This document shows, piece by piece, positions 11,595 to 27,013 of a DNA stretch of 27,205 nucleotides. Under the pieces are notes generated by a model. The model had not been told where the DNA came from. It worked only from the letters and a program-made list of their open reading frames with translations, and did no database searches. Both the position numbers and the translations under genes were made by a program. Every line of letters begins with the position of its first letter. Within the stretch, counting starts at the first letter, position 1. The DNA comes from a virus: positions 1 to 27,205 of IMG/VR virus record IMGVR_UViG_3300022934_000142; one strand, given 5' to 3'.

Positions 11595-11821
11595 TATGCT
11601 ACCTTTACCGTACCACTGTCATTATACAGTGCTCCTGTCTCAAGTCCAGTGGCGCTTGTAGGCAGGTCAGTTAGTGTTATTTTTGTGCCGCGCAACTCAC
11701 CGGGATTGCGTTCTTGTTCAATAAATACTTCCAGCGCACGAACCAAGTCTTGCATATACTGCTGACTATACTCTGGTGTGGCCTCTGGTAGCCTTGGTGG
11801 TGCAATTTCATTACCAGACAT
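11594..11821 (-). CDS. Small conserved virion-module protein
   Basis: This 75-aa protein lies between the nozzle-like gene and the glycine-zipper gene, with one-base TAATG overlaps on both sides. The N-terminal half is Pro-rich and then helical (SQQYMQDLVRALEVFIEQER). The C-terminal half, ELRGTKITLTDLPTSATGLE and then TGALYNDSGTVKVA, is a compact beta-rich module I recognise from small proteins and fibre ends of marine phages, in forms such as LPTSxTGLxxGxxxNDxGTxKV. A tail-attachment or fibre-like role is plausible. No function is established. The full length and the recognisable motif make it a real gene rather than a spacer. Confidence 0.75.
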   Translation of the reverse strand: MSGNEIAPPRLPEATPEYSQQYMQDLVRALEVFIEQERNPGELRGTKITLTDLPTSATGLETGALYNDSGTVKVA

Positions 11822-14800
11822 TAGCGTCTACCATCCTGACGTATATCAACACGCGGACTACCAAGTTTCCACTTTGATTCTAGCGCCTCAGACTCTACAC
11901 GAAGCGCGAAAGAGCGGCCACGAATACGCAAGTCAAGTTGATTGGTAAACTCTTCTACTGGACTTACCGATGTCCTAGATGCTGCACCAGCCGCCGTGTT
12001 TCCAAAGTCCTCACCCGGAAAGTTACGCGCTTTGATAGTAAATGTAGCTTGCGGCGAACTAATGTTTGTTGACCCAGTAAATGTCAGGTCAGGTATCACA
12101 CGGCGTATATATGTAAAGTGATCTCCATCACCGATGTCCATAGCGGCGGACTCAATAAACGAGTCCATAGCTTGACCATCTGCATCATAACCAAACTCGT
12201 GGTTATACAAGTAACCATCTTCGGCGGCAATCGGGAAGTCTCTTGTACCACGATCCAACCACGCTGTTCTGTCTAATGTTCCAAAGTACCAAATTTTATC
12301 CATGTAGTTGTAAACAACATATCTGTTGTTTTCAGTTGAGTCAGCAGATGGATACAACCAAAACACCTCACCAAACTCACTGTTAACTGCACCATAGACT
12401 TTATCAAATTCAGCTAAGTTTATGTCAGCAAAAACCTTGTCTTTTACGGTGCAGGGTAGCTGGGCTGTTTGACCAGCATATACATAAAAGTTATCCAGAC
12501 CCATCCAGAACACAAAGTCTTCTGTTGCTATAGCAGCATTTGGTCCGATGATCGTGATGTTGTTTGCAAGCTGTTGCAGGCCAAACGTAAATGGCGGACC
12601 AATAAACCGCAAAGACGAAAGCGCTGTGTCTGTCCACACCAGTATCTCACGCTTGGTTTCTAGCGCTTTTACAAACGTAGACCCAGAACCGAGGCGCAAG
12701 TCCCCAGCAGTATTGGTTGCGGCTGGATACCAAACAAGCGGGTCTTCTTGATTAGAAAAACGAATAAGTAACGGGTCTTGTATGCCATTACCTTGTGCAG
12801 CAGATAAATCATCATTTAGCCCATCACATCCAAAGGCCAAAACATGACGGTCTCGGTCAGATACCATAATCTGCTTACATATAGTAGGCACAGATGTTTT
12901 TGTTCCCGACCGCGTGGACAACTCCACGGCTCTAGAACCCAACCCATTTGATTTATCCCAGTAATAAATAAATTCATCTCGTGGGTTTATCAGCAAATCT
13001 TCGCCAAAGTTATCATGCGACCACAAACGTATTTGAGTGGTGGTATTCAAAGATGATGGCATACCCCAACCATAGGTGGCTTCGGTAACGGTAGCGCCGC
13101 TTGAATGGACGGCAGCGGGTGTACCAAACAAACCCCTAGAACAGCCTGTTAAGTCGTTTGAAGATATGCCTGTGTACTGAACTATTTCGCTAACTCCGGG
13201 CAACGCTACAGAAATAACAACATACCCAGATGTTGGGAAGCCACTAGTGCTGGTCAAAGGAATGGTAGTATCAGCAGCAGAAATATTTGCAGATAGTGTT
13301 GTACTCGCAGGTGTGTGACCAGAAACGCCACCGTAGCTACCAGCGCCCCAACCTGTGCCGCCAACGGTGGTGTTTAGACCCACGTTTATTTGATACTCAG
13401 CTATTGTTGGGTAAGTAATTGCGGTAATCGTTAGAGTTAAATCATTAGCAGGGGTTGCTCCGCCAAGACTGGTCCCGGCTATTGTTATTGTGTCACTTGC
13501 CGCATAACCTGTGCCTATATTACTAACTTCATCTACAGTGTAAACACCAGACCCGTCTGTGACTATCGTAAACTTAGCGCCTGATCCAGACCCGCTTGTG
13601 CTGGCTTGCGCTACATTTGTGTAACTTACAGAAGTTAAAGTTGCGACAGTTAGAACCAAATCGTTAGCAGGGCTGGTGCCGCCTAAATCTGTACCAGCTA
13701 TTGTGATCGTATCACTGACAGCGTAACCAGAACCAATATCTGTAATTTCATCTACTGTATAAGCTCCAGCGCCATCAGTTGATATGGTAAATTCAGCGCT
13801 TGTGCCACTGCCACTTGTACTGGTTTGAGTTATACCCGTAAAAGTACCAGTACCAATCGAAGAGCCGGAAAGCTGAGTAACAGTTAGCACCAAATCATTA
13901 GCAGGCGTAGCGCCACCAATACTTGTGCCAGCAATAGTGATGGTATCATTTACGGCATAACTAGAGCCAACCGTTGTAATAGCAACACTATACCCACCGT
14001 CACCATCTGTAGTTACGCTAAACTCTGCGCTTGTACCGCTACCACTTGTGCTAGTTTGTGTTACGCCTGTGTGTGTGGTGTTGCCAACAGAAGAGCCAGC
14101 AAGGTCAGTGATCGTAAGCGTTAGATCATGTGTTCCTTTTGTGCCGCCAAGGTTCTGACCTTCAATTAAGATCTCTTCCCCAACAGCGTATCCAGAACCA
14201 ACAGAAGTCACAGATACTGTATAATTACCAGAACTGGCAGTCACACTGAAAACTGCACCCACACCTGTGCCATTTGTGCTTGTCTGAACCACATTTGTAG
14301 TTGTAGCGCTTCCTGTAGATGCGCCGGAAATAGTTACATTACCAACACCTGTGCTACTTGGCGAAGAAAAGGTGGCCGCACCCACACCTGTGCCAGATGT
14401 CCCTACAGTTACTGTGTCAACACTTGTGCCGCCCACACCTGTGCCAGACAATGTAACTGTGCCTACACCAGCGCCGCCCACACCTGTATCACTAGCGTTT
14501 GCTGTTCGTGATGTGCCAGCAGAAGTGACGGTTGAAATTGCGCCGCCAGTTACAGTACCAACTGTTATTGTTAAATTATTTGCTGTGGTGGTTCCGCCAA
14601 GATTTGCACCGTTCACAGTTATAGTATCGCTAGCCGCGTATCCAGTGCCAGCTACAGTAATTGCTGCGACAGTGTATCCCCCATTGCCGTCTGTAGTAAT
14701 AGTAAATTCAGCACCAGTCCCTGTGCCACTAGTAGCATCCTGCGTAACCCCAGTGAATGTTTTTACAAAATCATCAATAAATATTTCATAGCTACTAGCG

Positions 14801-15267
14801 TTTACAACCCTAGATACCTGATGTTCAGCGTTTAGTATTGTAGCCGTTACATTTCCGCCTAAACCTTCAGCATTAGAGAAAATTACAAAGTCGTTTTGAT
14901 TAGCGCCATGATTGGTGTGGTTTACAGTTAGTGTGCTACTGCCGTTGGTAGCCGAAAATGTTACATCGCCTTGAGATGTTGTGGTGCGAATTGGTGTTAC
15001 ATCATTAAATGACGTGCCTTCTTCAACGTAATACTTGAGGTGTGTGCCAACGCCTAGAAAGTTTGACCCATCAAGTGCGATCCAGTTGTGAAGCGCACGG
15101 GCAGCGCCTTGGTAAGTGGAGTCAGAAAACTTTTGCCAGCCGCCAATTTTTTCAGGATAGCCAAGACGGAATCTTATTTTATCACCATCACGCCAGCCGC
15201 CTTCATTAGAGTACGAAGTAATATCGCGGTTGATGCCGGGGCGAAACTGTAGTTTTGTTAGCGGCAT
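11821..15267 (-). CDS. Tail nozzle / tail-tubular-B-like protein with a repeat insertion
   Basis: This 1148-aa protein starts with PLTKLQFRPGINRDITSYSN, a characteristic opening of large podovirus-type tail proteins in marine phages. The C-terminal 510 residues look like a beta-propeller nozzle, with repeated blades such as DPLLIRFSNQEDPLVWYPAA, TKREILVWTDTALSSLRFIG, EDFVFWMGLDNFYVYAGQTA and NRYVVYNYMDKIWYFG. By analogy with P22 gp10 or T7 gp12 it would form the distal tail tube. Residues of about 169-617 appear to interrupt this fold and hold five copies of a beta-rich domain plus a GTGVG-rich stretch. Residues flanking the insertion (SYEIFIDDF and AEYQINVGLNTTVGG) read as if once adjacent. 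AGGTGG lies 7 bases before the ATG. Adjacent genes encode the collar fibre and the 75-aa protein. The function is inferred from sequence pattern. Confidence 0.8.
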   Translation of the reverse strand: MPLTKLQFRPGINRDITSYSNEGGWRDGDKIRFRLGYPEKIGGWQKFSDSTYQGAARALHNWIALDGSNFLGVGTHLKYYVEEGTSFNDVTPIRTTTSQGDVTFSATNGSSTLTVNHTNHGANQNDFVIFSNAEGLGGNVTATILNAEHQVSRVVNASSYEIFIDDFVKTFTGVTQDATSGTGTGAEFTITTDGNGGYTVAAITVAGTGYAASDTITVNGANLGGTTTANNLTITVGTVTGGAISTVTSAGTSRTANASDTGVGGAGVGTVTLSGTGVGGTSVDTVTVGTSGTGVGAATFSSPSSTGVGNVTISGASTGSATTTNVVQTSTNGTGVGAVFSVTASSGNYTVSVTSVGSGYAVGEEILIEGQNLGGTKGTHDLTLTITDLAGSSVGNTTHTGVTQTSTSGSGTSAEFSVTTDGDGGYSVAITTVGSSYAVNDTITIAGTSIGGATPANDLVLTVTQLSGSSIGTGTFTGITQTSTSGSGTSAEFTISTDGAGAYTVDEITDIGSGYAVSDTITIAGTDLGGTSPANDLVLTVATLTSVSYTNVAQASTSGSGSGAKFTIVTDGSGVYTVDEVSNIGTGYAASDTITIAGTSLGGATPANDLTLTITAITYPTIAEYQINVGLNTTVGGTGWGAGSYGGVSGHTPASTTLSANISAADTTIPLTSTSGFPTSGYVVISVALPGVSEIVQYTGISSNDLTGCSRGLFGTPAAVHSSGATVTEATYGWGMPSSLNTTTQIRLWSHDNFGEDLLINPRDEFIYYWDKSNGLGSRAVELSTRSGTKTSVPTICKQIMVSDRDRHVLAFGCDGLNDDLSAAQGNGIQDPLLIRFSNQEDPLVWYPAATNTAGDLRLGSGSTFVKALETKREILVWTDTALSSLRFIGPPFTFGLQQLANNITIIGPNAAIATEDFVFWMGLDNFYVYAGQTAQLPCTVKDKVFADINLAEFDKVYGAVNSEFGEVFWLYPSADSTENNRYVVYNYMDKIWYFGTLDRTAWLDRGTRDFPIAAEDGYLYNHEFGYDADGQAMDSFIESAAMDIGDGDHFTYIRRVIPDLTFTGSTNISSPQATFTIKARNFPGEDFGNTAAGAASRTSVSPVEEFTNQLDLRIRGRSFALRVESEALESKWKLGSPRVDIRQDGRR
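13426..14748 (-). repeat. Five copies of a ~63-aa beta-rich domain inside the nozzle protein
   Basis: Copies lie at about 14560-14748, 14107-14292, 13876-14064, 13645-13833 and 13426-13614. Each follows the pattern TSxSGSGxxAxFxxxTDGxG, YxVxxIxxxGxGYAxxDTIT, IxGxxLGGxTPANDLxLTV. The four right-hand spacings in the protein are 152, 76, 77 and 73 residues, so the first gap equals two periods. The three copies nearest the C-terminus are most alike. Confidence 0.9.
14320..14490 (-). repeat. GTGVG-rich mini-repeats
   Basis: Between the first and second large domain copies, the protein is reduced to repeated TGVG-xx-x-V(T/S) units (residues of about 260-316, for example GGAGVGTVTLSGTGVGGTSV). In the DNA the + strand word acacctgtgcc and close variants recurs several times. 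This looks like slippage-prone low-complexity sequence lying where one more domain copy would be expected. Confidence 0.75.
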
Positions 15268-15275
15268 AAAACCAC

Positions 15276-16388
15276 CTATGTTTTAATAATATAGGTCAAA
15301 ATAAATGTAGGCTGGACGTTGTTGTGTGCCTGACCGTTACCTGTAGGGCTTGAAGTTCCACCTTGCACAGATGAAACATAGCCGGGGCTACCACCAGAAC
15401 CTGTGATACTGTAAAAGCCGCCACCAAAGTCAATGCCGTGAGTGTGTGATGGCAGTTGCGCAGTTGTCAGTGTGTGCGATTGCGAACCAGCCGCACCACC
15501 GAGAACGTCACCATTTAATGGGCTAGTAAGTCTATCAGCAGAAACCCCACCCATATCATCTTTACCAGCAACGACACGACCACGAAGATCAGGAACATTA
15601 AAGTTTTGACCGCTGCCGCCATAGGTATATCCAATAACAGCAAACAAATCGGCTTCTACATCTTTGTCTAAAGACTGACCATAGCAAAGCAGCCAACCTG
15701 TCGGCGCAGTTGCCCCCGCATACGGCATCAACATACCACTAGCAAAAGTATTAGAAGCTCCTAAAGCAGTAAAACCAAGCTGCCCAGACCCATCTGTTGT
15801 TAAAAACTCGTTTGCATTTCCATCAGCTTGCGGATATTTAATGCCATCAATAATAACATCGCCAGTACCGTTTGGTGTAATAGCAATGTCCCCGTTGCTA
15901 ACAGATACAATTGAGTTACCATTTACATCTAAGTTACCGCCAAGTTGTGGACTAGTATCGTCAACCAAATCCGCCGGGACTGCTCTTACTGCGGCACCAG
16001 CGCCAGCACCATCAGCATAAATCCAAGCAGTTTTGCCATTGGAAATAGTTGCGTTTGCGCCAGAGCCTTGTGTAAAGGTAGCTGAATAACCACCTGTAAT
16101 ATTGTTGTAAACTAGGTATACTTTATCCTGATCATTCGGACTAATTGTAATTGTACAATCCGCACCGGGAGTTCCGCCTAATATGAGTGTACGGTAATGA
16201 CCCTCCGACACAGCGCCGTCAGACGTAGTTAAAGTTTTTGTCGGACCCGTCAAGGTAATGTCGCCAACCCCATTGAGGCTGCGGTCAATGATATCAAAAT
16301 TTCTGTTGGTCGTAGTACCCCAAGTTCCAGACTGTTCGCCCGGTCCCGGCTGCTCTATACCTGTATTATCTGTGTAGGTAGATGCCAT
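15276..16388 (-). CDS. Tail fibre with C-terminal phage tail collar domain
   Basis: The N-terminus of this 370-aa protein (TYTDNTGIEQPGPGEQSGTW, then NRNFDIIDRSLNGVGDITL) is a common opening of marine-phage fibres. Residues of about 145-185 carry PQLGGNLDVNGNSIVS and ITPNGTGDVIIDGIKY, a typical shaft module. Residues 218-275 form a tail-collar domain (GMLMPYAGATAPTGWLLCYG, then NVPDLRGRVVAGKDDMGG). The tip has SHTLTTAQLPSHTHG near residues 304-318, whose His-x-His could bind a metal as in T4 short-fibre tips, and ends NNVQPTFILTYIIK. It is probably a trimeric receptor-binding or adsorption fibre. AGGTGG lies just before its ATG, which follows the upstream stop directly. It is next to the nozzle gene, its likely attachment point. 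Confidence 0.9.
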   Translation of the reverse strand: MASTYTDNTGIEQPGPGEQSGTWGTTTNRNFDIIDRSLNGVGDITLTGPTKTLTTSDGAVSEGHYRTLILGGTPGADCTITISPNDQDKVYLVYNNITGGYSATFTQGSGANATISNGKTAWIYADGAGAGAAVRAVPADLVDDTSPQLGGNLDVNGNSIVSVSNGDIAITPNGTGDVIIDGIKYPQADGNANEFLTTDGSGQLGFTALGASNTFASGMLMPYAGATAPTGWLLCYGQSLDKDVEADLFAVIGYTYGGSGQNFNVPDLRGRVVAGKDDMGGVSADRLTSPLNGDVLGGAAGSQSHTLTTAQLPSHTHGIDFGGGFYSITGSGGSPGYVSSVQGGTSSPTGNGQAHNNVQPTFILTYIIKT

Positions 16389-19847: not shown

Positions 19848-20576
19848 TCACAGTATCGTCAAGTTGCCATCAACCGTAATGCTGGTTGAGGAATCAATGG
19901 TTAGCGGCCCAATAGCCAAAGCATTTTTGGTTGAACCAATGGTGGTGTTTTCGTCAACCGTCTGGTTATTAGTACGGAAAACAGCCGTATCAACAGTAGT
20001 GTTGGTAGTCTGAAACTGCGGCGCGGTTATCTCGCCTACAAACGTACCGCCGCTGGCCTTGCTCACTGTGTCCGTCACGCTAAATGCGCGGAATGCACGA
20101 ATGACAACCTCATCATTCAGCGCCGCGCCACTGGCTAACGTAATCGTGGTGCCACTGCTTGGTGTGTAGTCTACCGTGTCCAGATGAATACCATTTAGGT
20201 ACACATCTACATCATTGCCACTAAACGCCAAAATAGCGCCTGCATTGTCCGCCCCAGTAAATGCTGTCTGACCTGCGGTTGCAATGTACTTATATACCTG
20301 CATTGCGTAAGATAGGGGCTGGTCAACGGCGCGACCAAAGAAGCGCACAACAATCTCATCAGTGTTGGCTGGTGCTTCGGAAAAGGTCAGTGTGTTCGCG
20401 TAGGCTGTGTATGAAGCGCTGGAACCCGGTTCCTGAACCACGTTACCAACAGTCACAAGTATAGCTTCACCGCTGGCTACATTTTGCGCCAGTGTGAAAG
20501 CTGTAGTAGACCCGTCCCCAGTGAACTTCTGGAACGTGATATCACCTACATTTGGATCTATACCTATGTAAGCCAT
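19848..20576 (-). CDS. Fibre protein with two GDGST-type beta domains and a GPLTI tip
   Basis: Residues of about 15-83 of this 242-aa protein form a beta domain with the signature FTGDGSTTAFTL ... VGNVVQEPGSSASYTAY ... LTFSEAP ... VVRFFG. Residues of about 95-165 repeat the same fold (GQTAFTG, DVYLNGIHLDTVDYTPSSGT, LNDEVVIRAFRAF). The end, NALAIGPLTIDSSTSITVDG plus NLTIL, is a tip motif shared with the proteins at 24047 and 21815. Such domains occur in fibre shafts of cyanophage-like fibres. It lacks the MASILKVD opening and instead starts MAYIGIDPNVGDITFQKF. Its start lies in the repeated junction block after the upstream HGDLA stop. It is probably a fibre shaft on which the smaller tips could assemble (inference). 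Confidence 0.8.
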   Translation of the reverse strand: MAYIGIDPNVGDITFQKFTGDGSTTAFTLAQNVASGEAILVTVGNVVQEPGSSASYTAYANTLTFSEAPANTDEIVVRFFGRAVDQPLSYAMQVYKYIATAGQTAFTGADNAGAILAFSGNDVDVYLNGIHLDTVDYTPSSGTTITLASGAALNDEVVIRAFRAFSVTDTVSKASGGTFVGEITAPQFQTTNTTVDTAVFRTNNQTVDENTTIGSTKNALAIGPLTIDSSTSITVDGNLTIL

Positions 20577-20593
20577 TACGCGAGGTCTCCGTG
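20574..20593. repeat. Junction block copy (exact)
   Basis: On the + strand this reads cattacgcgaggtctccgtg. On the coding strand it holds the codons for H-G-D-L-A, the TAA stop and the ATG of the gene at 19848, with GGAGA nine bases before that ATG. It is identical to the blocks at 21412 and 23240. Confidence 0.93.
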
Positions 20594-20986
20594 AATGACA
20601 ATTTGCAGATATGAATAATCAATAAAAGACGTTGCGCTATTATCTCCATAAGTGACAGCAAAATAAAATTTTGATGCTGTACGAGTTTTGCCCGGTATTG
20701 TACTATCATCATAAACACCGCCCATATACGCATTAGCTACAGAAAAATAACCAATATTAAATGCAGATGTGTAAGTGTTATTAGACATTCCATTAGTCCA
20801 ATTCAAATCACCCCGTCCTGTAGACGTGTCTGTAAGACTGCTTGTGTTAAAGCTGTCATCTAGTTGAGGCACAGTCTGGTCAAATAAAGCCCAAGCCTTC
20901 GCACTACCATTAACCACATAAGTAGTATCGACAGACTCGGTGCCTGCATTATTGGCAATGGTGGTGACTCTAAGTTCGCTTGCCAT
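20576..20986 (-). CDS. Array fibre paralogue 1 (KAW ... HGDLA type)
   Basis: This 136-aa protein opens MASELRVTTIANNAGTESVD, followed by YVVNGSAKAWALFDQ. Its core has DDSFNTSSLTDTSTGRGDLN and WTNGMSNNTYTSAFN, and a variable part rich in aromatic residues runs to YSYLQIVIHGDLA. The KAW-x-DSFNxSSxTDxxTG pattern is a known fibre-head domain of marine phages. It is one of six tandem paralogues. Both boundaries are TAATG overlaps within the conserved junction block. Among the six, its closest relative at the KAW segment is the gene at 22844, with a shared 21-base DNA stretch. Confidence 0.82.
   Translation of the reverse strand: MASELRVTTIANNAGTESVDTTYVVNGSAKAWALFDQTVPQLDDSFNTSSLTDTSTGRGDLNWTNGMSNNTYTSAFNIGYFSVANAYMGGVYDDSTIPGKTRTASKFYFAVTYGDNSATSFIDYSYLQIVIHGDLA
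20891..20910. repeat. Internal KAW DNA block, copy in paralogue 1
   Basis: The + strand word ccaagccttcgcactaccat (plus one further base) encodes NGSAKAW and is identical to the block at 23150. A shorter core, caagccttcg, also occurs in paralogues 2 and 3. Confidence 0.9.
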
Positions 20987-21003
20987 TATGCGAGGTCTCC
21001 GTG
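20984..21003. repeat. Junction block copy (one mismatch)
   Basis: The block between paralogues 2 and 1 differs from the exact copies at one base (cattatgcg for cattacgcg). It encodes the HGDLA end of paralogue 2, the stop, and the start of paralogue 1. Confidence 0.93.
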
Positions 21004-21414
21004 TGCATTTGTCATTTGAATGTGTGCATCATATTCGCCAGAGTTGGTTGCTAAGTTTCTTTGTACTTGTGTTGTATAGTTAGATGCAGTTGGTGCGGCA
21101 CCCCTGCGTATGCCTATAGCGACAACATACTGTGTATCAGTACCATCATTTAAACCTGCAATTCCTGAAACAGAATAATTAGCACTTGAGAATGATGACG
21201 ATAAATTTATTTGCGCCTCGCCAGTAGAAACATCACTAACACTTGAATTATTGAAACTGTCATCTACACCGGGAGTTGCTTGATTATATCTTACCCAAGC
21301 CTTCGACAGCCCCTGCTGAAGTGACTGCGTAGCCGCGCCGCCTTCGCTAGTAACAGTTATGTCACCAGCCGATGCAATCCCCCGCAGTTCATCTACCTTT
21401 AGGATACTAGCCAT
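20986..21414 (-). CDS. Array fibre paralogue 2 (KAW ... HGDLA type)
   Basis: The N-terminus of this 142-aa protein, MASILKVDELRGIASAGDIT, carries the shared docking motif. After QSLQQGLSKAWVRYNQ comes DDSFNNSSVSDVSTGEAQIN and SSSFSSANYSVSGIAGLN. A variable tip region (VVAIGIRRGAAPTASNYTTQ) follows, and the protein ends QMTNAHGDLA. The SLxQGL(S/A)K segment is shared with the paralogue at 23242 rather than with its direct neighbours, so adjacent genes are not simple recent duplicates. Both ends lie in junction blocks with one-base overlaps. A role as fibre tip is inferred from the domain. Confidence 0.82.
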   Translation of the reverse strand: MASILKVDELRGIASAGDITVTSEGGAATQSLQQGLSKAWVRYNQATPGVDDSFNNSSVSDVSTGEAQINLSSSFSSANYSVSGIAGLNDGTDTQYVVAIGIRRGAAPTASNYTTQVQRNLATNSGEYDAHIQMTNAHGDLA

Positions 21415-21431
21415 TACGCGAGGTCTCCGTG
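21412..21431. repeat. Junction block copy (exact)
   Basis: The block between paralogues 3 and 2 is identical over 20 bases to those at 20574 and 23240. It encodes HGDLA, the stop and the next start, with GGAGA in Shine-Dalgarno position. Confidence 0.93.
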
Positions 21432-21815
21432 TACTGTTACCTGCATCATTTGTGGGTCAGTTAAATTTAAAGCATTTTCAGAATAGTTAGTGCCTCTAAT
21501 TGCCGCAGTGCTGTGCAACCCATAAGTGTTATCCGCATCTCCTGTGGTAAAAATATTAGTGTAGGAGTTGGTGCTTCCCCTTACAGAAGAAGAACCATTA
21601 GCAGAATAATCACCGTTACCTAGTGTGTTGGTGAAATTACCTTCGTATATACCAGTTCCCTCATCCGTAAAACTAGCTATGTTAAAACTGTCCCGTAATG
21701 CTGGTGTTTGCGCGTTAAGATTGAACCAAGCCTTCGCAGCACTCTGCTTCGTTAGAGTAACTGGCCCAGTTCCTGCGGCATCGGTCAGAGTATCTACATT
21801 CAACACACTTGGCAT
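21414..21815 (-). CDS. Array fibre paralogue 3 (KAW ... HGDLA type)
   Basis: This 133-aa protein starts MPSVLNVDTLTDAAGTGPVT and LTKQSAAKAWFNLNAQTP, followed by ALRDSFNIASFTDEGTGIYE and GNFTNTLGNGDYSANGSSSV. It ends TDPQMMQVTVHGDLA. The PVTLTKQ-x-AAK segment is shared with the paralogue at 23631, and the ALRDSFNIAS segment with the one at 22844, so different parts of the gene have different nearest relatives. Its upstream boundary (TGATG) follows the 63-aa tip gene and lacks the junction block; its 3' end carries the block. It is a probable fibre-tip protein. Confidence 0.82.
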   Translation of the reverse strand: MPSVLNVDTLTDAAGTGPVTLTKQSAAKAWFNLNAQTPALRDSFNIASFTDEGTGIYEGNFTNTLGNGDYSANGSSSVRGSTNSYTNIFTTGDADNTYGLHSTAAIRGTNYSENALNLTDPQMMQVTVHGDLA

Positions 21816-22006
21816 CAGACAATACTCCAGTAACCATTAACGGTGACGGTGGCGTTCTGGGTAATCGGACCCGCGCTTAGACCATTTTGGTCAGCGTCAA
21901 TGGTAAAGTCAGTTGAGATCGTCTGACCATTACGGCGCACGACATTAATGTCAGTTGTTTCCTGACGATTGTCCACCATATTTGCTTCGGCTTTACTAAG
22001 GGCCAT
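21815..22006 (-). CDS. Stand-alone fibre tip module (GPIT type), 63 aa
   Basis: This 63-aa protein has an N-terminal helix (MALSKAEANMVDNRQE) and then VVRRNGQTISTDFTIDADQN and GLSAGPITQNATVTVNGYWS. The second half is homologous by pattern to the last 50 or so residues of the fibre proteins at 19848 (NALAIGPLTI...) and 24047 (NALCAGPLTL...). Here the module exists as its own gene without the GDGST domains. It could form a small trimeric knob or complete a longer fibre by non-covalent assembly. It overlaps the next gene start by TGATG and lies 9 bases after the 119-aa gene. Confidence 0.75.
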   Translation of the reverse strand: MALSKAEANMVDNRQETTDINVVRRNGQTISTDFTIDADQNGLSAGPITQNATVTVNGYWSIV

Positions 22007-22015
22007 TGTGTCCCC

Positions 22016-22375
22016 CTATGCGTAAGGGTTGTCCCCACAGCATGAAGGCCATGCGGCTTTAAGAGCAATGATGCTGTCTGCATCATCACCAGCGGTAGGT
22101 GCATCACGAAGAGCCTGCTTGTCAGCAACGATCTGAGTTGTGTCAGAGTTTGCTTCCAATGCCTTCATGTAATCAGTGTCCAGTGCGGCAAGCAAAGGTG
22201 TCCGCGCCTCGCGTACCTTGTCAGCAAAGATTTCTTTTGCTTTGTCTAAGTCTTCAGTGATTACGCTACCGGACAGTGTCCACGCACCACGAAAGTCACG
22301 ATTTGATGGGACGGTTGCAGTTGACGCCTCAATCTGATTACCGTCTTTGTCCACGATGTATGTTGTAACAGCCAT
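22016..22375 (-). CDS. Tail-fibre-assembly / chaperone-like small protein
   Basis: This 119-aa protein begins VTTYIVDKDGNQIEASTATV, then RDFRGAWTLSGSVITEDLDK. The rest is helical: AKEIFADKVREARTPLLAAL, KALEANSDTTQIVADKQALR, DAP, and LKAAWP near the end. The K-x-x-LRDxP ... AWP pattern resembles the C-terminal part of phage tail-assembly chaperones that act on fibres (Caudo_TAP-like), and this composition is common in marine phages. It is acidic and unlike its beta-rich neighbours, consistent with an assembly factor rather than a virion component. It is encoded in the middle of the fibre array. The chaperone role is inference. Confidence 0.65.
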   Translation of the reverse strand: MAVTTYIVDKDGNQIEASTATVPSNRDFRGAWTLSGSVITEDLDKAKEIFADKVREARTPLLAALDTDYMKALEANSDTTQIVADKQALRDAPTAGDDADSIIALKAAWPSCCGDNPYA

Positions 22376-22385
22376 TATAATACTC

Positions 22386-22844
22386 CTATGCGGCTAGTTC
22401 ATCAGATATGCGCCACGAATTGCGCCATTCTCTAGTATGCGGTAATTGTTGCTTTTTGCATATTACCATCTTCGGCTTATTGCCGCTATCCCAATTCTTC
22501 CAGACGTGCTGTGGCACATCTTTTTGAATTAGGTATTCAATTGCTTCTTCTTCAGTCATTGCTGGCATTGGCTCTGTCTGGTGCAACAGATAGCCCCGTG
22601 TATGCTTCTTGAAGTCGGGCTGTGCTTCGTCCTTTGCCAGTTCCCAGTAAACCCACACAGGTGGTAAAATGCCACCCTGCAAAGCGCAAGCCATCCAGTT
22701 GGGGTCAGGCACAAGTATCTTAGCGCACTCATCCACGCTGTCTTCGTAGACAACACGATAGTCTGACTGCACACCGTCTAGGTTTTCCTTTGCCCAGCAT
22801 AGGCGGTCAAACAAATGTGTCCCTTGAAACTCTGGTGTTTGCAT
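22386..22844 (-). CDS. Conserved marine-phage protein, possible fibre assembly factor
   Basis: This 152-aa protein is acidic, Trp-rich and mixed alpha/beta: MQTPEFQGTHLFDRLCWAKE, VDECAKILVPDPNWMACALQ, WVYWELAKDEAQPDFKKHTR. It ends MVICKKQQLPHTREWRNSWR followed by ISDELAA. The LPxTREWRNSWR end resembles a short motif seen in phage proteins encoded beside tail-assembly chaperones (LPxDRxFRNAW). No enzyme motif or membrane segment is visible. It starts in a diverged copy of the junction block, one base overlapping the upstream stop, and precedes the 119-aa chaperone-like gene by 10 bases. The two probably work together. Function is not established. Confidence 0.65.
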   Translation of the reverse strand: MQTPEFQGTHLFDRLCWAKENLDGVQSDYRVVYEDSVDECAKILVPDPNWMACALQGGILPPVWVYWELAKDEAQPDFKKHTRGYLLHQTEPMPAMTEEEAIEYLIQKDVPQHVWKNWDSGNKPKMVICKKQQLPHTREWRNSWRISDELAA

Positions 22845-22861
22845 TATGCTAAGTCTCCGTG
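22842..22861. repeat. Junction block copy (diverged)
   Basis: The block at the 3' end of paralogue 4 reads cattatgctaagtctccgtg, three mismatches from the exact form, but still encodes HGDLA, a TAA stop and the ATG of the 152-aa gene. GGAGA is kept. Confidence 0.88.
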
Positions 22862-23242
22862 AATTGTAGCAGTGTGGTCAATATCTCGGTCAACACTTGA
22901 GTCCGACCTACCACCGTGAATGATAAATGCGGTAGTTGTTGCCCCGCCATTAGCACCTCCACCCGTACCCAATAAAGAACTAATGCCCGAACTAGTCGCA
23001 TCGTGCGGTGGATTTGAATTAGGTTTAGAATAATTGGCGTTACTCATAGCAGAGGTGAAAGTGTGCGTATAAATGCCTGTTCCGCCATCAGTTAAACTAG
23101 CAATGTTAAATGAATCCCTTAATGCAGAGCCATCTGCTTGTCCGTTTGTCCAAGCCTTCGCACTACCATTCACAACATAGTTCGTGGCGATTGACCCAGC
23201 GGTGCTGTGTTCCAGCGTATCTGCTACAATTTTACCAGCCAT
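22844..23242 (-). CDS. Array fibre paralogue 4 (KAW ... HGDLA type)
   Basis: This 132-aa protein opens MAGKIVADTLEHSTAGSIAT, then NYVVNGSAKAWTNGQADG, ALRDSFNIASLTDGGTGIYT and HTFTSAMSNANYSKPNSNPP. A Gly/Ser-rich variable region (LLGTGGGANGGATTTAFIIH) leads to DIDHTATIHGDLA. It is the clearest example of the DSFNxxSxTDGGTGxY domain. The VVNGSAKAW part matches paralogue 1 at the DNA level over 21 bases, while the GTGIYTHTFTSAM part is closest to the paralogue at 23242. Both ends are TAATG overlaps, with the junction block better conserved at its start than at its end. Confidence 0.82.
   Translation of the reverse strand: MAGKIVADTLEHSTAGSIATNYVVNGSAKAWTNGQADGSALRDSFNIASLTDGGTGIYTHTFTSAMSNANYSKPNSNPPHDATSSGISSLLGTGGGANGGATTTAFIIHGGRSDSSVDRDIDHTATIHGDLA
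23150..23169. repeat. Internal KAW DNA block, copy in paralogue 4
   Basis: This block is identical to the one at 20891 over 21 bases. It marks the transition between the N-terminal docking part and the variable tip domain in both genes. Confidence 0.9.
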
Positions 23243-23259
23243 TACGCGAGGTCTCCGTG
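23240..23259. repeat. Junction block copy (exact)
   Basis: The block between paralogues 5 and 4 is identical over 20 bases to those at 20574 and 21412, about 2 kb away, although the genes between them have diverged strongly. Confidence 0.93.
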
Positions 23260-23631
23260 AATAATTGCATTGTGTAAACTATCTGTATTAGAGCCGGATG
23301 AAGTGTGTACTCTTATTTCAAGATTAGTAGTGGTTGTGTTAGTTGAGCCATAACGTGCAAATCTAGTCCCCCCACCAACAGTTAGTGACAAACCACTACT
23401 ATCCATCTGAACACTCATAGCATTAGTAAGTGTGTGAGTGTAAGTGCCAGTGCCATCATCACTTGAAGAACTAAAGTTTAGTGTGTCCTGTTGACCAGCG
23501 GCACTGTCTGCACCTAACCAGCCCTTCGCTAGCCCCTGTTCCAGAGACATAGTAGCAGTAGCGCCAACCGTCACGGTGATGTCGTTGGCGGTGGTCTTGC
23601 CAGTGAGGGTATCTACTTTGATTTCAGACAT
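23242..23631 (-). CDS. Array fibre paralogue 5 (KGW ... HGDLA type)
   Basis: This 129-aa protein starts MSEIKVDTLTGKTTANDITV and continues ATMSLEQGLAKGWLGADSAA, QDTLNFSSSSDDGTGTYTHT and LTNAMSVQMDSSGLSLTVGG. The variable tip ends TSSGSNTDSLHNAIIHGDLA. Its KAW is changed to KGW and the DSFN motif to DTLN, so it is among the more diverged copies. The start is a TGATG overlap and the end lies in an exact copy of the 20-base junction block. The fibre-tip assignment rests on paralogy with its neighbours. Confidence 0.8.
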   Translation of the reverse strand: MSEIKVDTLTGKTTANDITVTVGATATMSLEQGLAKGWLGADSAAGQQDTLNFSSSSDDGTGTYTHTLTNAMSVQMDSSGLSLTVGGGTRFARYGSTNTTTTNLEIRVHTSSGSNTDSLHNAIIHGDLA

Positions 23632-23649
23632 CAGGCTAGGTCTCCAATG
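23629..23649. repeat. Junction block copy (strongly diverged)
   Basis: At the 3' end of paralogue 6 the sequence encodes IGDLA, then a TGATG stop/start overlap. GGAGACCTAG is still recognisable. It marks the upstream edge of the block-containing region. Confidence 0.7.
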
Positions 23650-24050
23650 ATTGATGCAAAGCTGCCAAGAAGATCACTGTCTGCCCCTGCATTAGTTTGG
23701 TCTGAACCATAGCGTGTATTTATTTGCACCTGTGTTGTAGATGGTGCAACGCTACCTTCCATTTGCATACCAGATATTCCTCTTTCGCCCCCAGATGCTT
23801 CTGAAGAAGCCGTCCTATTATGCACCCCACCAAGAAAACATCTGTCAGTTGACGAAGAATATGCGTTAGTAAACGTGCTAGTAAAGTTTCCAGCAGAATC
23901 ATCTGTCAAACTGCTTTGATTTAGACTCCCTTCAACAGATTGGTTTCTAGCATCATAGTTTACCCAATACTTAGCCGCCTCTTGCTTAGTCAGCGTGACT
24001 GGACTGGTGCCATCGCTGGCTGTGATTGTGTCTGCGCGTAGTTCACTCAT
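23631..24050 (-). CDS. Array fibre paralogue 6 (KYW ... GDLA type)
   Basis: An ATG 72 bases upstream is possible, but it would add a Trp/Tyr-rich leader encoded over the end of the previous gene. The ATG at 24050 gives MSELRADTITASDGTSPVTL, matching the docking motif of the array, and forms an ATGA junction. The 139-aa product continues KQEAAKYWVNYDARN, EGSLNQSSLTDDSAGNFTST and FTNAYSSSTDRCFLGG. The tip includes ISGMQMEGSVAPSTTQVQIN and ends FASIIGDLA, so the His of HGDLA is replaced by Ile. This is the first of the six paralogues in transcription order and one of the most diverged. Confidence 0.8.
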   Translation of the reverse strand: MSELRADTITASDGTSPVTLTKQEAAKYWVNYDARNQSVEGSLNQSSLTDDSAGNFTSTFTNAYSSSTDRCFLGGVHNRTASSEASGGERGISGMQMEGSVAPSTTQVQINTRYGSDQTNAGADSDLLGSFASIIGDLA

Positions 24051-24529
24051 GCTATCACCAATGTACCACCAGTAGAAACTGTGATAACCACCCCTGTTGC
24101 TAACGTCAATGGCCCTGCACACAGAGCATTGTCTGTGCCAGCAATTGTCACGCTTGTGTTTAGCTCTTTTTCATGTACGCGGAAGATGTCACCTCTGCCG
24201 CTGGCTGTGTCGCCTGTCGCCCCATTTTCCCCCTGAAAGTAACCAGCAGATCTAAAGCTAATGGTACGTTCAGAAAACCCACGATACACGACATACACGT
24301 TGTTCGTCCCAGATGACGGCGCGGCGTCAAAGGTCAGTGAGGTGCCGTTGGCTGTATATGACTTGCCAACACCCGGCTCCTGCTGGACGTTGTTTACAAA
24401 TACCTCTAGCTCTTCAGATACGTTCACGGCTCGGTTTAGTGTGAACACGGTCGTTGAACCATCGCCACTGAAATACTGGCTGGTTGGAGACTCTAGCGAT
24501 TTTGCGGGTGCGCCGCCTACATAGCTCAT
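24047..24529 (-). CDS. Fibre protein with one GDGST-type domain and a GPLTL tip
   Basis: I start this protein (160 aa) at the ATG at 24529, five codons inside the longest frame, because it follows the repeated junction GGATAAAGACATG. The domain SQYFSGDGSTTVFTLNRAV ... VFVNNVQQEPGVGKSYTAN ... LTFDAAPSSGTNNVYVVYRG is the same type as in the protein at 19848. The end, NALCAGPLTLATGVVITVST and GGTLVIA, is the shared tip module. Between them lies GYFQGENGATGDTASGRGDI, a short collagen-like or linker stretch. It is a probable fibre shaft or tip, placed symmetrically to the 19848 gene on the other side of the array. Confidence 0.8.
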   Translation of the reverse strand: MSYVGGAPAKSLESPTSQYFSGDGSTTVFTLNRAVNVSEELEVFVNNVQQEPGVGKSYTANGTSLTFDAAPSSGTNNVYVVYRGFSERTISFRSAGYFQGENGATGDTASGRGDIFRVHEKELNTSVTIAGTDNALCAGPLTLATGVVITVSTGGTLVIA

Positions 24530-25360: not shown

Positions 25361-25370
25361 GTCTTTATCC
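25358..25370. repeat. Second junction word GGATAAAGACATG, copy 2
   Basis: On the coding strand it contains the last Gly codon and TAA stop of the 194-aa gene, AGAC and the ATG of the 109-aa gene. It is identical to the word at 24527. Confidence 0.8.
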
Positions 25371-25949
25371 TAACGCAATTGCAAAAGCCAGCGCTTGCGG
25401 GTCCTGTTCTGTAAGGTTTACAGCAGTGCCGCTGGCATCATTATATATCATCTTCTCTGCTGGCATAGTACAGAACACCGTGCGTGTACCTGCGCCCCAG
25501 CTAATCTTACCATCGCCAAATGTAAGCACGGTATCGTCCGCGAGTGTAACAGCCGTATCCAACACCAAGTTGTTCTGGTCTGTAACAGTTGCTACCGTAA
25601 CAACACCAGATATGCCTGTGCCTCTTACACGCATACCAACAGCAATCGTACCGTTGTTACCGTCCACCGCCACACCCGTAGCTGCCGTTGTAGCACCATT
25701 GACATCAGCAGTAGCTGTAGCACCGCTGCTTTCAAATATGGTATCTCGTGACAAAGTTGTACCAGAAGCGGTGTATGTACCTATACCAACCTCAAAGTCC
25801 GTGCCGTCTGTGCAGGAATAATAGGTGGTGTTGCCATCACCTATTTCAGCGAACGAATCAAATCCACCAAAGGCACCAGCAAGTGTTAACGTGCCAGTGC
25901 CTGTTGTGGTTGTCGTTTCTTTTACACGGTCCTTGATTACTAGGGCCAT
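25365..25949 (-). CDS. Virion structural protein carrying one copy of the DQNN insertion module
   Basis: This 194-aa protein reads MALVIKDRVKETTTTTGTGT, GDGNTTYYSCTDGTDFEVGI and TTLSRDTIFESS in its first third and SWGAGTRTVFCTMPAEKMIY in its last third. Together these give a known small phage structural-protein pattern in which SRDTIxxSS normally runs straight into the WGAGT(K/R)xVFCxxPA segment. Here about 70 residues (76-147) are inserted between them, containing GTIAVGMRVRGTGISG and TVTDQNNLVLDTAVTLADD. The same module occurs twice in the upstream gene. The core function may be head or tail decoration; the insert is probably surface-exposed. The TAATG junction with the 354-aa gene implies coupling. 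Confidence 0.8.
   Translation of the reverse strand: MALVIKDRVKETTTTTGTGTLTLAGAFGGFDSFAEIGDGNTTYYSCTDGTDFEVGIGTYTASGTTLSRDTIFESSGATATADVNGATTAATGVAVDGNNGTIAVGMRVRGTGISGVVTVATVTDQNNLVLDTAVTLADDTVLTFGDGKISWGAGTRTVFCTMPAEKMIYNDASGTAVNLTEQDPQALAFAIALG
25509..25724 (-). repeat. DQNN insertion module, copy in the 194-aa protein
   Basis: This is about 72 residues from TATADVNGATTAATGVAVDG to DDTVLTFGDG, containing RGTGISG and TVTDQNNLVLDTA. Of the three copies it is closest to the one at 26450-26659 in its first half. DNA identity between copies is patchy, so the duplication is not recent. Confidence 0.88.
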
Positions 25950-27013
25950 TACTTCAACTCAATGCTTAGATTACCCGCGTTGATACGGAAGATGTCGCCA
26001 GCAGCAACAGACTTACTTGCGTCCAGTGCGCCAACAAACAGGATGTTCGTGCCATCAAATGTCAGTACAGCGTCATCAGACAATGTCACACTGGTGTCTA
26101 ACACAATGTTGTTTTGATCAGTTACCGTCTGCACTCTTACAACACCGCTTGTAGCACCTGTAATACCTGTGCCAGTAACAATGTCGCCAACTACAATTGT
26201 GCCGTCATTACCATCAACAGCCACATTAGCGGAAGATGTCACTGCACCATTTACGTTTGCATGAGCAATCTGACCATCAGCAACAAAAGCATGAGTTACC
26301 GTGTAGCTGGCGGCAGTACCTGCTGCGGCAGGAAACTCAATGTTGTTGTCGTTAATCACACGCTGTGCATCAGAGATAACTGTGTCCGCCGCTGAGTGTG
26401 CGTAGTCTGTTGTGCTTGAAGCGCCGCGTGTACAACCCGTCAACGTGCTAGTGCCATCAAAGGTTAGCGCCACATCATCCGAAACCGTAATTGCGGTGTC
26501 CACCACAAGGTTGTTTTGATCAGTTACAGTTGTTACATAAACTGTGCCACTAATACCTGTGCCTGTCACTTTCATGCCAACTGCAATCGTGCCAGAGTTA
26601 CCGTCTACAACTAACGCGGTAGAACCAGACAAAGCACCGTTTACATCGGCGGTAGCGGTGCTACCCTTGCCTGTATAGGTGATGATTTCGTCATCAATCG
26701 TAACTGTACCTGAAGCTGGAAAAGCTTCTGCGTCTGCGACATGAATTGATGTGTCGCCCTGTGCGGCTGCTAGACCAAGAGTTGAAACAGACTGCTTCCA
26801 GTTAGCCGCAGTTACTTGTTGACGTGTATAGTCAGCATCGTCTGTGTCAATCTGGACTTCTGTCAAATTGCCTTTTTCAGCGCTGCTGACTGCGGTTGCC
26901 AGCCCAACGTAAATGCTATTGCCGGGCGAAGCAAAAGAAAGAGAGTCGTTCTTAAATATGTAATCCAGAACCCTTCTTTCTAGGTAGGTGGTTGCTGCGT
27001 TTGATGTTGCCAT
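25949..27013 (-). CDS. Virion structural protein carrying two copies of the DQNN insertion module
   Basis: The core of this 354-aa protein is recognisable in three pieces: residues 1-117 (YLERRVLDYIFKNDSLSFAS, SIYVGLATAVSSAEKGNLTE, VTIDDEIITYTGK), residues 189-247 (STLTGCTRGASSTTDYAHSA, IEFPAAAGTAASYTVTHAFV) and the end (NILFVGALDASKSVAAGDIF plus RINAGNLSIEL). Joined together they give a familiar phage protein of about 210 aa. Residues of about 119-188 and 249-322 are two copies of a module with VTDQNN(L/I)V(V/L)DT at the centre. Both inserts fall where a beta-hairpin loop is expected. AGGAG lies before the ATG. It follows the adaptor gene by 16 bases, which suits a tail or connector-associated protein. 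The precise role is unknown. Confidence 0.8.
   Translation of the reverse strand: MATSNAATTYLERRVLDYIFKNDSLSFASPGNSIYVGLATAVSSAEKGNLTEVQIDTDDADYTRQQVTAANWKQSVSTLGLAAAQGDTSIHVADAEAFPASGTVTIDDEIITYTGKGSTATADVNGALSGSTALVVDGNSGTIAVGMKVTGTGISGTVYVTTVTDQNNLVVDTAITVSDDVALTFDGTSTLTGCTRGASSTTDYAHSAADTVISDAQRVINDNNIEFPAAAGTAASYTVTHAFVADGQIAHANVNGAVTSSANVAVDGNDGTIVVGDIVTGTGITGATSGVVRVQTVTDQNNIVLDTSVTLSDDAVLTFDGTNILFVGALDASKSVAAGDIFRINAGNLSIELK
26048..26269 (-). repeat. DQNN insertion module, second copy in the 354-aa protein
   Basis: Residues of about 249-322 run from AHANVNGAVTSSANVAVDGN to DDAVLTFDGT. This copy has three extra residues (ATS) after GTGITG compared with the other two and reads GTIVVGDIVTGTG in place of GTIAVGM. 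The core TVTDQNNIVLDTSVTLSDD is conserved. Confidence 0.88.
26450..26659 (-). repeat. DQNN insertion module, first copy in the 354-aa protein
   Basis: Residues of about 119-188 run from TATADVNGALSGSTALVVDG to DDVALTFDGT and interrupt the segment EIITYTGK / STLTGCTRG, which is contiguous in proteins of this type that I know. The centre reads TVTDQNNLVVDTAITVSDD. Confidence 0.88.

Follow-up and report, generated by a model that had tools for sequence, protein, structure and literature searches.

A podovirus nozzle gene and its neighborhood

The window, by which we mean the whole 27,205-nucleotide stretch of DNA analyzed here, derives from an uncultured marine podovirus. Its minus strand carries a gene (11821-15267) for a nozzle (tail hub/tubular) protein of 1148 aa (Table 1). 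We classify the product as a podophage nozzle of the tail tubular B or gp10 type by core sequence, fold, and gene neighbors. With phmmer, the nozzle core matches the solved nozzles of Pa223 (9nwi_Y, 2.2e-11) and VP1 (8zkm_E, 0.002), and PHROG 3287, a virion structural family, matches the protein at 2.8e-69. The best Foldseek matches of the nozzle model are podophage nozzles (E 5e-16 to 1e-4). Fold matches of the core comprise Pa223, SU10, VP1, A4, Pan3, Pam1, P22 gp10, GP4, and Sf6, with VIA Z scores of 11-14 against phage nozzles over aa 735-1148; the C-terminal core, aa 736-1148, is the most conserved part of the protein. Immediately upstream lies the gene for a tail protein with a Collar domain (15276-16388), tail-fiber genes are also located upstream, and a DNA-ejection-protein homologue (phrog_4287) is encoded downstream. 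This gene order resembles that of phage DSL-LC04.

The nozzles of Pa223 (9nwi), VP1 (8zkk/8zkm), GP4, and P22 gp10 have homologous cores or the same fold. At 471-521 aa, these solved proteins are about the size of the window core alone (aa 1-95 plus 736-1148). By analogy with the T7, SU10, and P22-type nozzles, we assume that the window nozzle is a hexamer.

Table 1. Positions in the window of the nozzle protein segments and of a six-gene array
Feature	Residues (aa)	Position	Strand	Remarks
Nozzle core, N-terminal part	1-95	14983..15267	-	In all nozzles, including minimal ones of 492-502 aa
Small beta-barrel (nozzle-tip domain), first part	96-170	14758..14982	-	Absent from minimal nozzles; aligns with phi92/K1F endosialidase barrel
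Repeat R1	171-245	14533..14757	-	Profile; in L002, not in near relative L083
Gly-rich spacer with TANASDTG(V/N)GG	246-321	14305..14532	-	Conserved; motif is a plain loop in repeat-free L008
Repeat R2	322-396	14080..14304	-	Profile
Repeat R3	397-472	13852..14079	-	Profile
Repeat R4	473-543	13639..13851	-	Profile; predicted structure R4-R5
Repeat R5	544-615	13423..13638	-	Profile; predicted structure R4-R5
Last barrel strand and return to core (EYQINVG...GGTGWGAG)	616-655	13303..13422	-	Directly after barrel in repeat-free L008/L018
Second accessory domain ("TTL" domain)	656-735	13063..13302	-	Absent in 625-aa orthologues
Nozzle core, C-terminal part (propeller and platform region)	736-1148	11824..13062	-	VIA Z 14 to SU10 nozzle 7z4b 543-1005
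Six-gene array		20576-20986, 20986-21414, 21414-21815, 22844-23242, 23242-23631, 23631-24122	-	phrog_11355 for three of six

Five repeats in a discontinuous array

Five beta-rich units of about 72 aa each (R1 to R5), 43-71% identical to one another in protein sequence, occupy 13423-14757. To avoid circularity, the profile used for detection was made solely from 21 repeats of non-nozzle proteins in other phages. In the window nozzle, this profile detects exactly five domains, at 63-83 bits, and thereby bears out the original observation of five beta-rich repeats at 13426-14748 (aa 174-614). Shuffling the insert 500 times gave a best domain score of 7.1 bits, a gap that rejects chance repetition. 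R1 and R2 are not contiguous; between them lies a conserved Gly-rich spacer of about 76 aa (aa 246-321) that is kept in the nozzles L002, L004, L005, L083, and L084.

Mis-assembly or assembly collapse is unlikely because exact DNA repeats in the array reach no more than 18 nt and the units are 54-70% identical in DNA; independent 5-unit orthologues from two other metagenomes (L002, L003) likewise argue against an artefact. Recent tandem amplification is rejected by the same low DNA identity and by the best matches of R1-R3, which are the same-position units of other nozzles.

A nested series of insertions

Nozzles of this kind form a nested series of added domains, from core to barrel to TTL domain to repeats. 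In the minimal nozzles (Octadecabacter DB virus 2, phiM5; 492-502 aa), the equivalent of aa 95 joins that of about aa 630 directly, and barrel and repeats are both absent; the window insertion begins after about 95 residues of nozzle core. Since nozzles exist without the whole barrel-plus-repeat region, the repeats do not belong to the tube core. This rejects the view of the repeats as tube wall and upholds the earlier claim of an insertion outside the core. The small barrel (the equivalent of aa 96-170 plus 616-628) is present in L018 and DSL-LC04, and L008 has the TTL domain (aa 656-735 equivalent) placed after the barrel.

The segments flanking the repeats had been predicted to be neighbors in the nozzle fold. 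Structurally, aa 92-628 of the model match the phi92 endosialidase (4hiz_A 255-342, rmsd 1.9, Z 11) over a single continuous barrel of 84 residues. This agrees with that prediction and means that the repeats split one small barrel, in whose last loop they lie. The loop reads TANASDTGNGG in repeat-free L008, and TANASDTGVGG is still seen after R1 in the window; thus, R1 was inserted before the motif and R2-R5 after it. L085-type nozzles have an extra repeat within the TTL domain, flanked by GVSS and NDLTGCTRG. The protein was also said to be otherwise of expected size, which is correct: its nearest orthologues that have all the other domains but no repeats measure 700-723 aa.

The nozzle of HTVC023P-type pelagiphages is orthologous and has the barrel together with a homologous TTL domain (47% identity, 4e-13), there located inside the barrel; no GxGY repeats, as we refer to the units described above, were found among 80 relatives of this type. 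These nozzles (L148:12001-14136, L231-L310) occur with and without the TTL domain in the barrel, at 711 vs about 640 aa. The MinM2 nozzle, used as a query, found no relatives.

Where the array would sit is suggested by solved relatives. The T7 nozzle tip domain arises from a blade-3 loop (PMC6702177), and the SU10 nozzle domains are inserted between propeller blades 2 and 3 (PMC9509320); in this established anatomy, such insertions lie distally on the nozzle, and by analogy the window barrel would occupy the same site. Because the core is poorly modeled in the prediction for the whole protein (pTM 0.32; pLDDT below 35 for aa 1-92; propeller blade count and assignment not readable), we infer this distal placement, and we deduce the direction of the array from the nested insertion rather than from structure prediction.

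The barrel itself (14758-14982 plus 13384-13422, minus strand) has a look-alike in the endosialidase tailspikes of phi92 and K1F (Z 10-11, rmsd 1.9-2.7). This likeness, seen in a model, hints that nozzle tips and tailspikes may be connected.

Gain, loss, and exchange among relatives

Orthologues do not share one repeat count: 0, 2, 3, 4, and 5 units all occur, so that the constant count which would have refuted the original claim is not seen. Among 72 distinct full-length nozzles, 57 lack the repeat and 15 carry 2 to 5, a ratio that is biased because some carriers were fetched by the repeat itself. The commonest relatives carry no repeats. On a core tree from a quick search, presence and absence change 7 times, with at least 5 changes forced by supported branches; the window clusters with L008 and L018, both without repeats, and with L007, which has 3 units. 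The closest core is that of L008, 91% identical and with zero repeats (88-91% for L008/L018 together).

The barrel tells of a different kinship from the core. Over aa 96-165, the window is 80% identical to L002 vs about 57-63% to L008/L018, and barrel and cassette together resemble L002. Judged by these closest relatives, the window nozzle gene is a mosaic of core on the one hand and barrel plus cassette on the other. In L084, the cassette is 64-72% identical to that of the window and the core 53-65%, and R1 is present in L002 and missing in its near relative L083.

The near-identical phages L092 and L094, on which the evidence for a recombination trough mainly rests, capture one such exchange. 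Their DNA is mostly 96-100% identical around and in most of the nozzle gene, with a trough of 51-90% at nozzle aa ~200-700, and dS is 0.04 in the core vs 0.37 in the repeats. The three genes immediately upstream of the nozzle are 96-98% identical; the most divergent neighboring gene is a tail-fiber gene (38% aa identity), others being at 87-98%. Taken together, these sequence comparisons show that nozzles of otherwise close kinship have acquired, lost, and exchanged the cassette as a unit. Estimates of dN/dS are 0.09-0.26 for repeats vs 0.03-0.10 for cores, indicating that the repeats are under purifying selection, weaker than that on the core.

A repeat family on different virion proteins

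The search for the repeat in other virion genes, which was originally proposed as a check, succeeds in other phages and fails in the window, where the GxGY repeat was not found in other genes. It occurs in the gp7 baseplate wedge of the T4-like cyanophages S-SSM7 and P-HM1 (38-42% identity, E to 3e-11), the same repeat family in a myovirus baseplate rather than a podovirus nozzle, and elsewhere in aquatic phages in tail fibers, a major tail protein, a tail sheath (L144), and an RCC1-like protein. By sequence likeness, the same repeat thus appears on different outer virion surfaces, with relatives in baseplate, fiber, tail tube, and sheath. The sheath gene (L144:3291-6908) encodes a myovirus protein of 1206 aa with one GxGY repeat at aa 571-645, which suggests that the domain can decorate a contractile sheath.

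The predicted structure of R4-R5 (mean pLDDT 90.5) has short strands and one short helical turn per unit. BFVD yields unit-level matches in many aquatic-phage proteins (rmsd 1.4-2.1 A, 34-47% identity). Against the PDB, Foldseek returns nothing below E 3 (best E 3.0), VIA a single chain at Z 2.6, and a profile search a weak match to 3fo8 (E 0.03); the lack of a PDB match is not proof of a new fold. A Pfam search gave no confident family, and Pfam and Foldseek gave no confident lectin, carbohydrate-binding, or Ig domain match.

Two hints of kinship are weak and unproven. The motif GSxYAVGDxIT is suggestive of T4 gp18 domain I (PF22639), but the match is not significant (35% probability by hhalign, spanning 23 columns; best Pfam E 0.018; the 3fo8 profile match also belongs to this comparison). 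The VCBS repeat (TIGR01965) matches one window unit at 17.2 bits vs a cut-off of 15.5 (E 0.0042), with 3 of 37 units matching at all. A pattern scan of bacterial genomes gave one weak match, in a Bacteroidetes MAG, so that within the limits of such a scan there is no obvious cellular source. These observations suggest that the GxGY repeat represents a domain family, as yet unnamed, whose members occur in proteins of the tail sheath, tail tube, baseplate, and nozzle of aquatic phages.

Phage Ig-like domains offer a partial parallel. As described by Fraser et al. 2006 (cited in PMC8718954), they too are promiscuous beta accessories on diverse virion proteins. The window repeats differ in belonging to another sequence family with no confident Ig match and in standing in tandem in a nozzle loop.

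Function of the array

On balance, we lean towards reading the insert as an exchangeable decoration cassette, displayed at the nozzle tip outside the DNA tube, that serves host-surface contact and has diversified with the tail fiber. Five beta domains of about 72 aa and a spacer are, by sequence, inserted in the terminal loop of a small accessory barrel, itself inserted in the core. The array would hang outside the DNA tube, because the core of relatives assembles without barrel or repeats, and would do so at the host-facing end. A hexameric nozzle would give six arrays per virion; the spike-like projection and thirty domains around the tip that were originally proposed are, by this analogy, a hypothesis. 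During adsorption, the arrays could attach weakly and multivalently to polymers or particles of the host surface, and they would be diversified together with the tail fiber. The adhesion layer first suggested is thus a reasonable hypothesis, and the array probably acts, by analogy, in adhesion or host-surface recognition. Such a role would be in line with the proposal that Ig-like domains on phage tails bind carbohydrates weakly (PMC8718954) and with the reported binding of TTPB, a nozzle-type protein, to a Vibrio host receptor (PMC7241545). Against this reading count the repeat-free state of the commonest relatives, the searches that gave no confident lectin, carbohydrate-binding, or Ig match, the poorly modeled core, and the reliance of the recombination trough mainly on one genome pair.

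The main mechanical rival is modeled on SU10 (Kuravirus): tip domains might rearrange on host contact, lengthen the tail, and carry the channel through the envelope. SU10 gp17 is, like the window protein, a podophage nozzle with accessory beta domains in the propeller region, and it is the best structural match to the core and one of the top structural matches. Its four Ig-like domains straighten out of an L-shaped arrangement, which lengthens the tail by 28 nm (PMC9509320). The window encodes a DNA-ejection-protein homologue downstream of the nozzle. Unlike SU10, however, the window has one barrel, within which are nested repeats that look unrelated and differ in number from one sister to the next. 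A copy number of 0-5, with near relatives of the same core lacking any repeat, would be unexpected for a required extension device, and the same domain is found on sheath, tail-tube, and baseplate proteins without such a role; we regard this mechanism as improbable. Docking is scarcely more probable: here the array would hold a different component of the virion, for instance a short fiber or the Collar-type protein at 15276-16388, and would not engage the host. SU10 nozzle domain 4 does touch the short tail fiber (PMC9509320), and the window nozzle adjoins a Collar-domain gene with tail-fiber genes upstream; yet the genes just upstream in L092/L094 are nearly identical though the array was swapped, and the repeats recur in virions of quite different build.

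A tip loop that merely takes up foreign domains, which then drift and are lost, mostly without function, is unlikely, if less so than either of these. Unrelated modules do share few loops (GxGY repeats, TTL in two places, and the VDGN module at 25949-27013 of the window), and presence and absence change often. Against this stand the repeat dN/dS of 0.09-0.26, the retention of an ordered cassette at 60-80% identity over diverged cores, and a swap pattern that parallels the tail fiber in the one pair examined (L092/L094).

If the reading as a host-contact cassette is true, the evolution of host contact in abundant marine short-tailed phages reaches beyond fibers and spikes, and the DNA-gating nozzle itself bears an exchangeable external module. 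More tentatively, and we hold this to be doubtful as a generality, the nozzle tip of many marine podoviruses may be a second fast-evolving host-contact organ, a nested docking site whose barrel, TTL, and GxGY modules are combined and exchanged among lineages along with the fiber; the GxGY repeat would then be an unnamed virion domain of aquatic phages whose fold is yet to be solved. What is new is the nested, exchangeable construction together with the unnamed domain, the system itself being of a known kind. Sisters with and without the repeats, whose cores are ~90% identical, provide natural pairs for asking what the repeats do.

Other loci of the window

Two further features of the window were observed outside the nozzle gene. 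At 20576-24122 (minus strand) are six small, overlapping, paralogous tail-fiber-like genes, all ending in GDLA and 29-48% identical in pairs; they are possibly alternative fiber-tip proteins. The genes at 25365-25949 and 25949-27013 (minus strand) share a second loop module of ~75 aa, ADVNGA..VDGNxGTIxVG..TVTDQNNLVLDTAVTLADD..LTF, which is 62-65% identical between them. In the gene at 25949-27013, this VDGN module splits a TTL-type domain just before TLTGCTRG, in the same loop as the GxGY repeat of L085-type nozzles.
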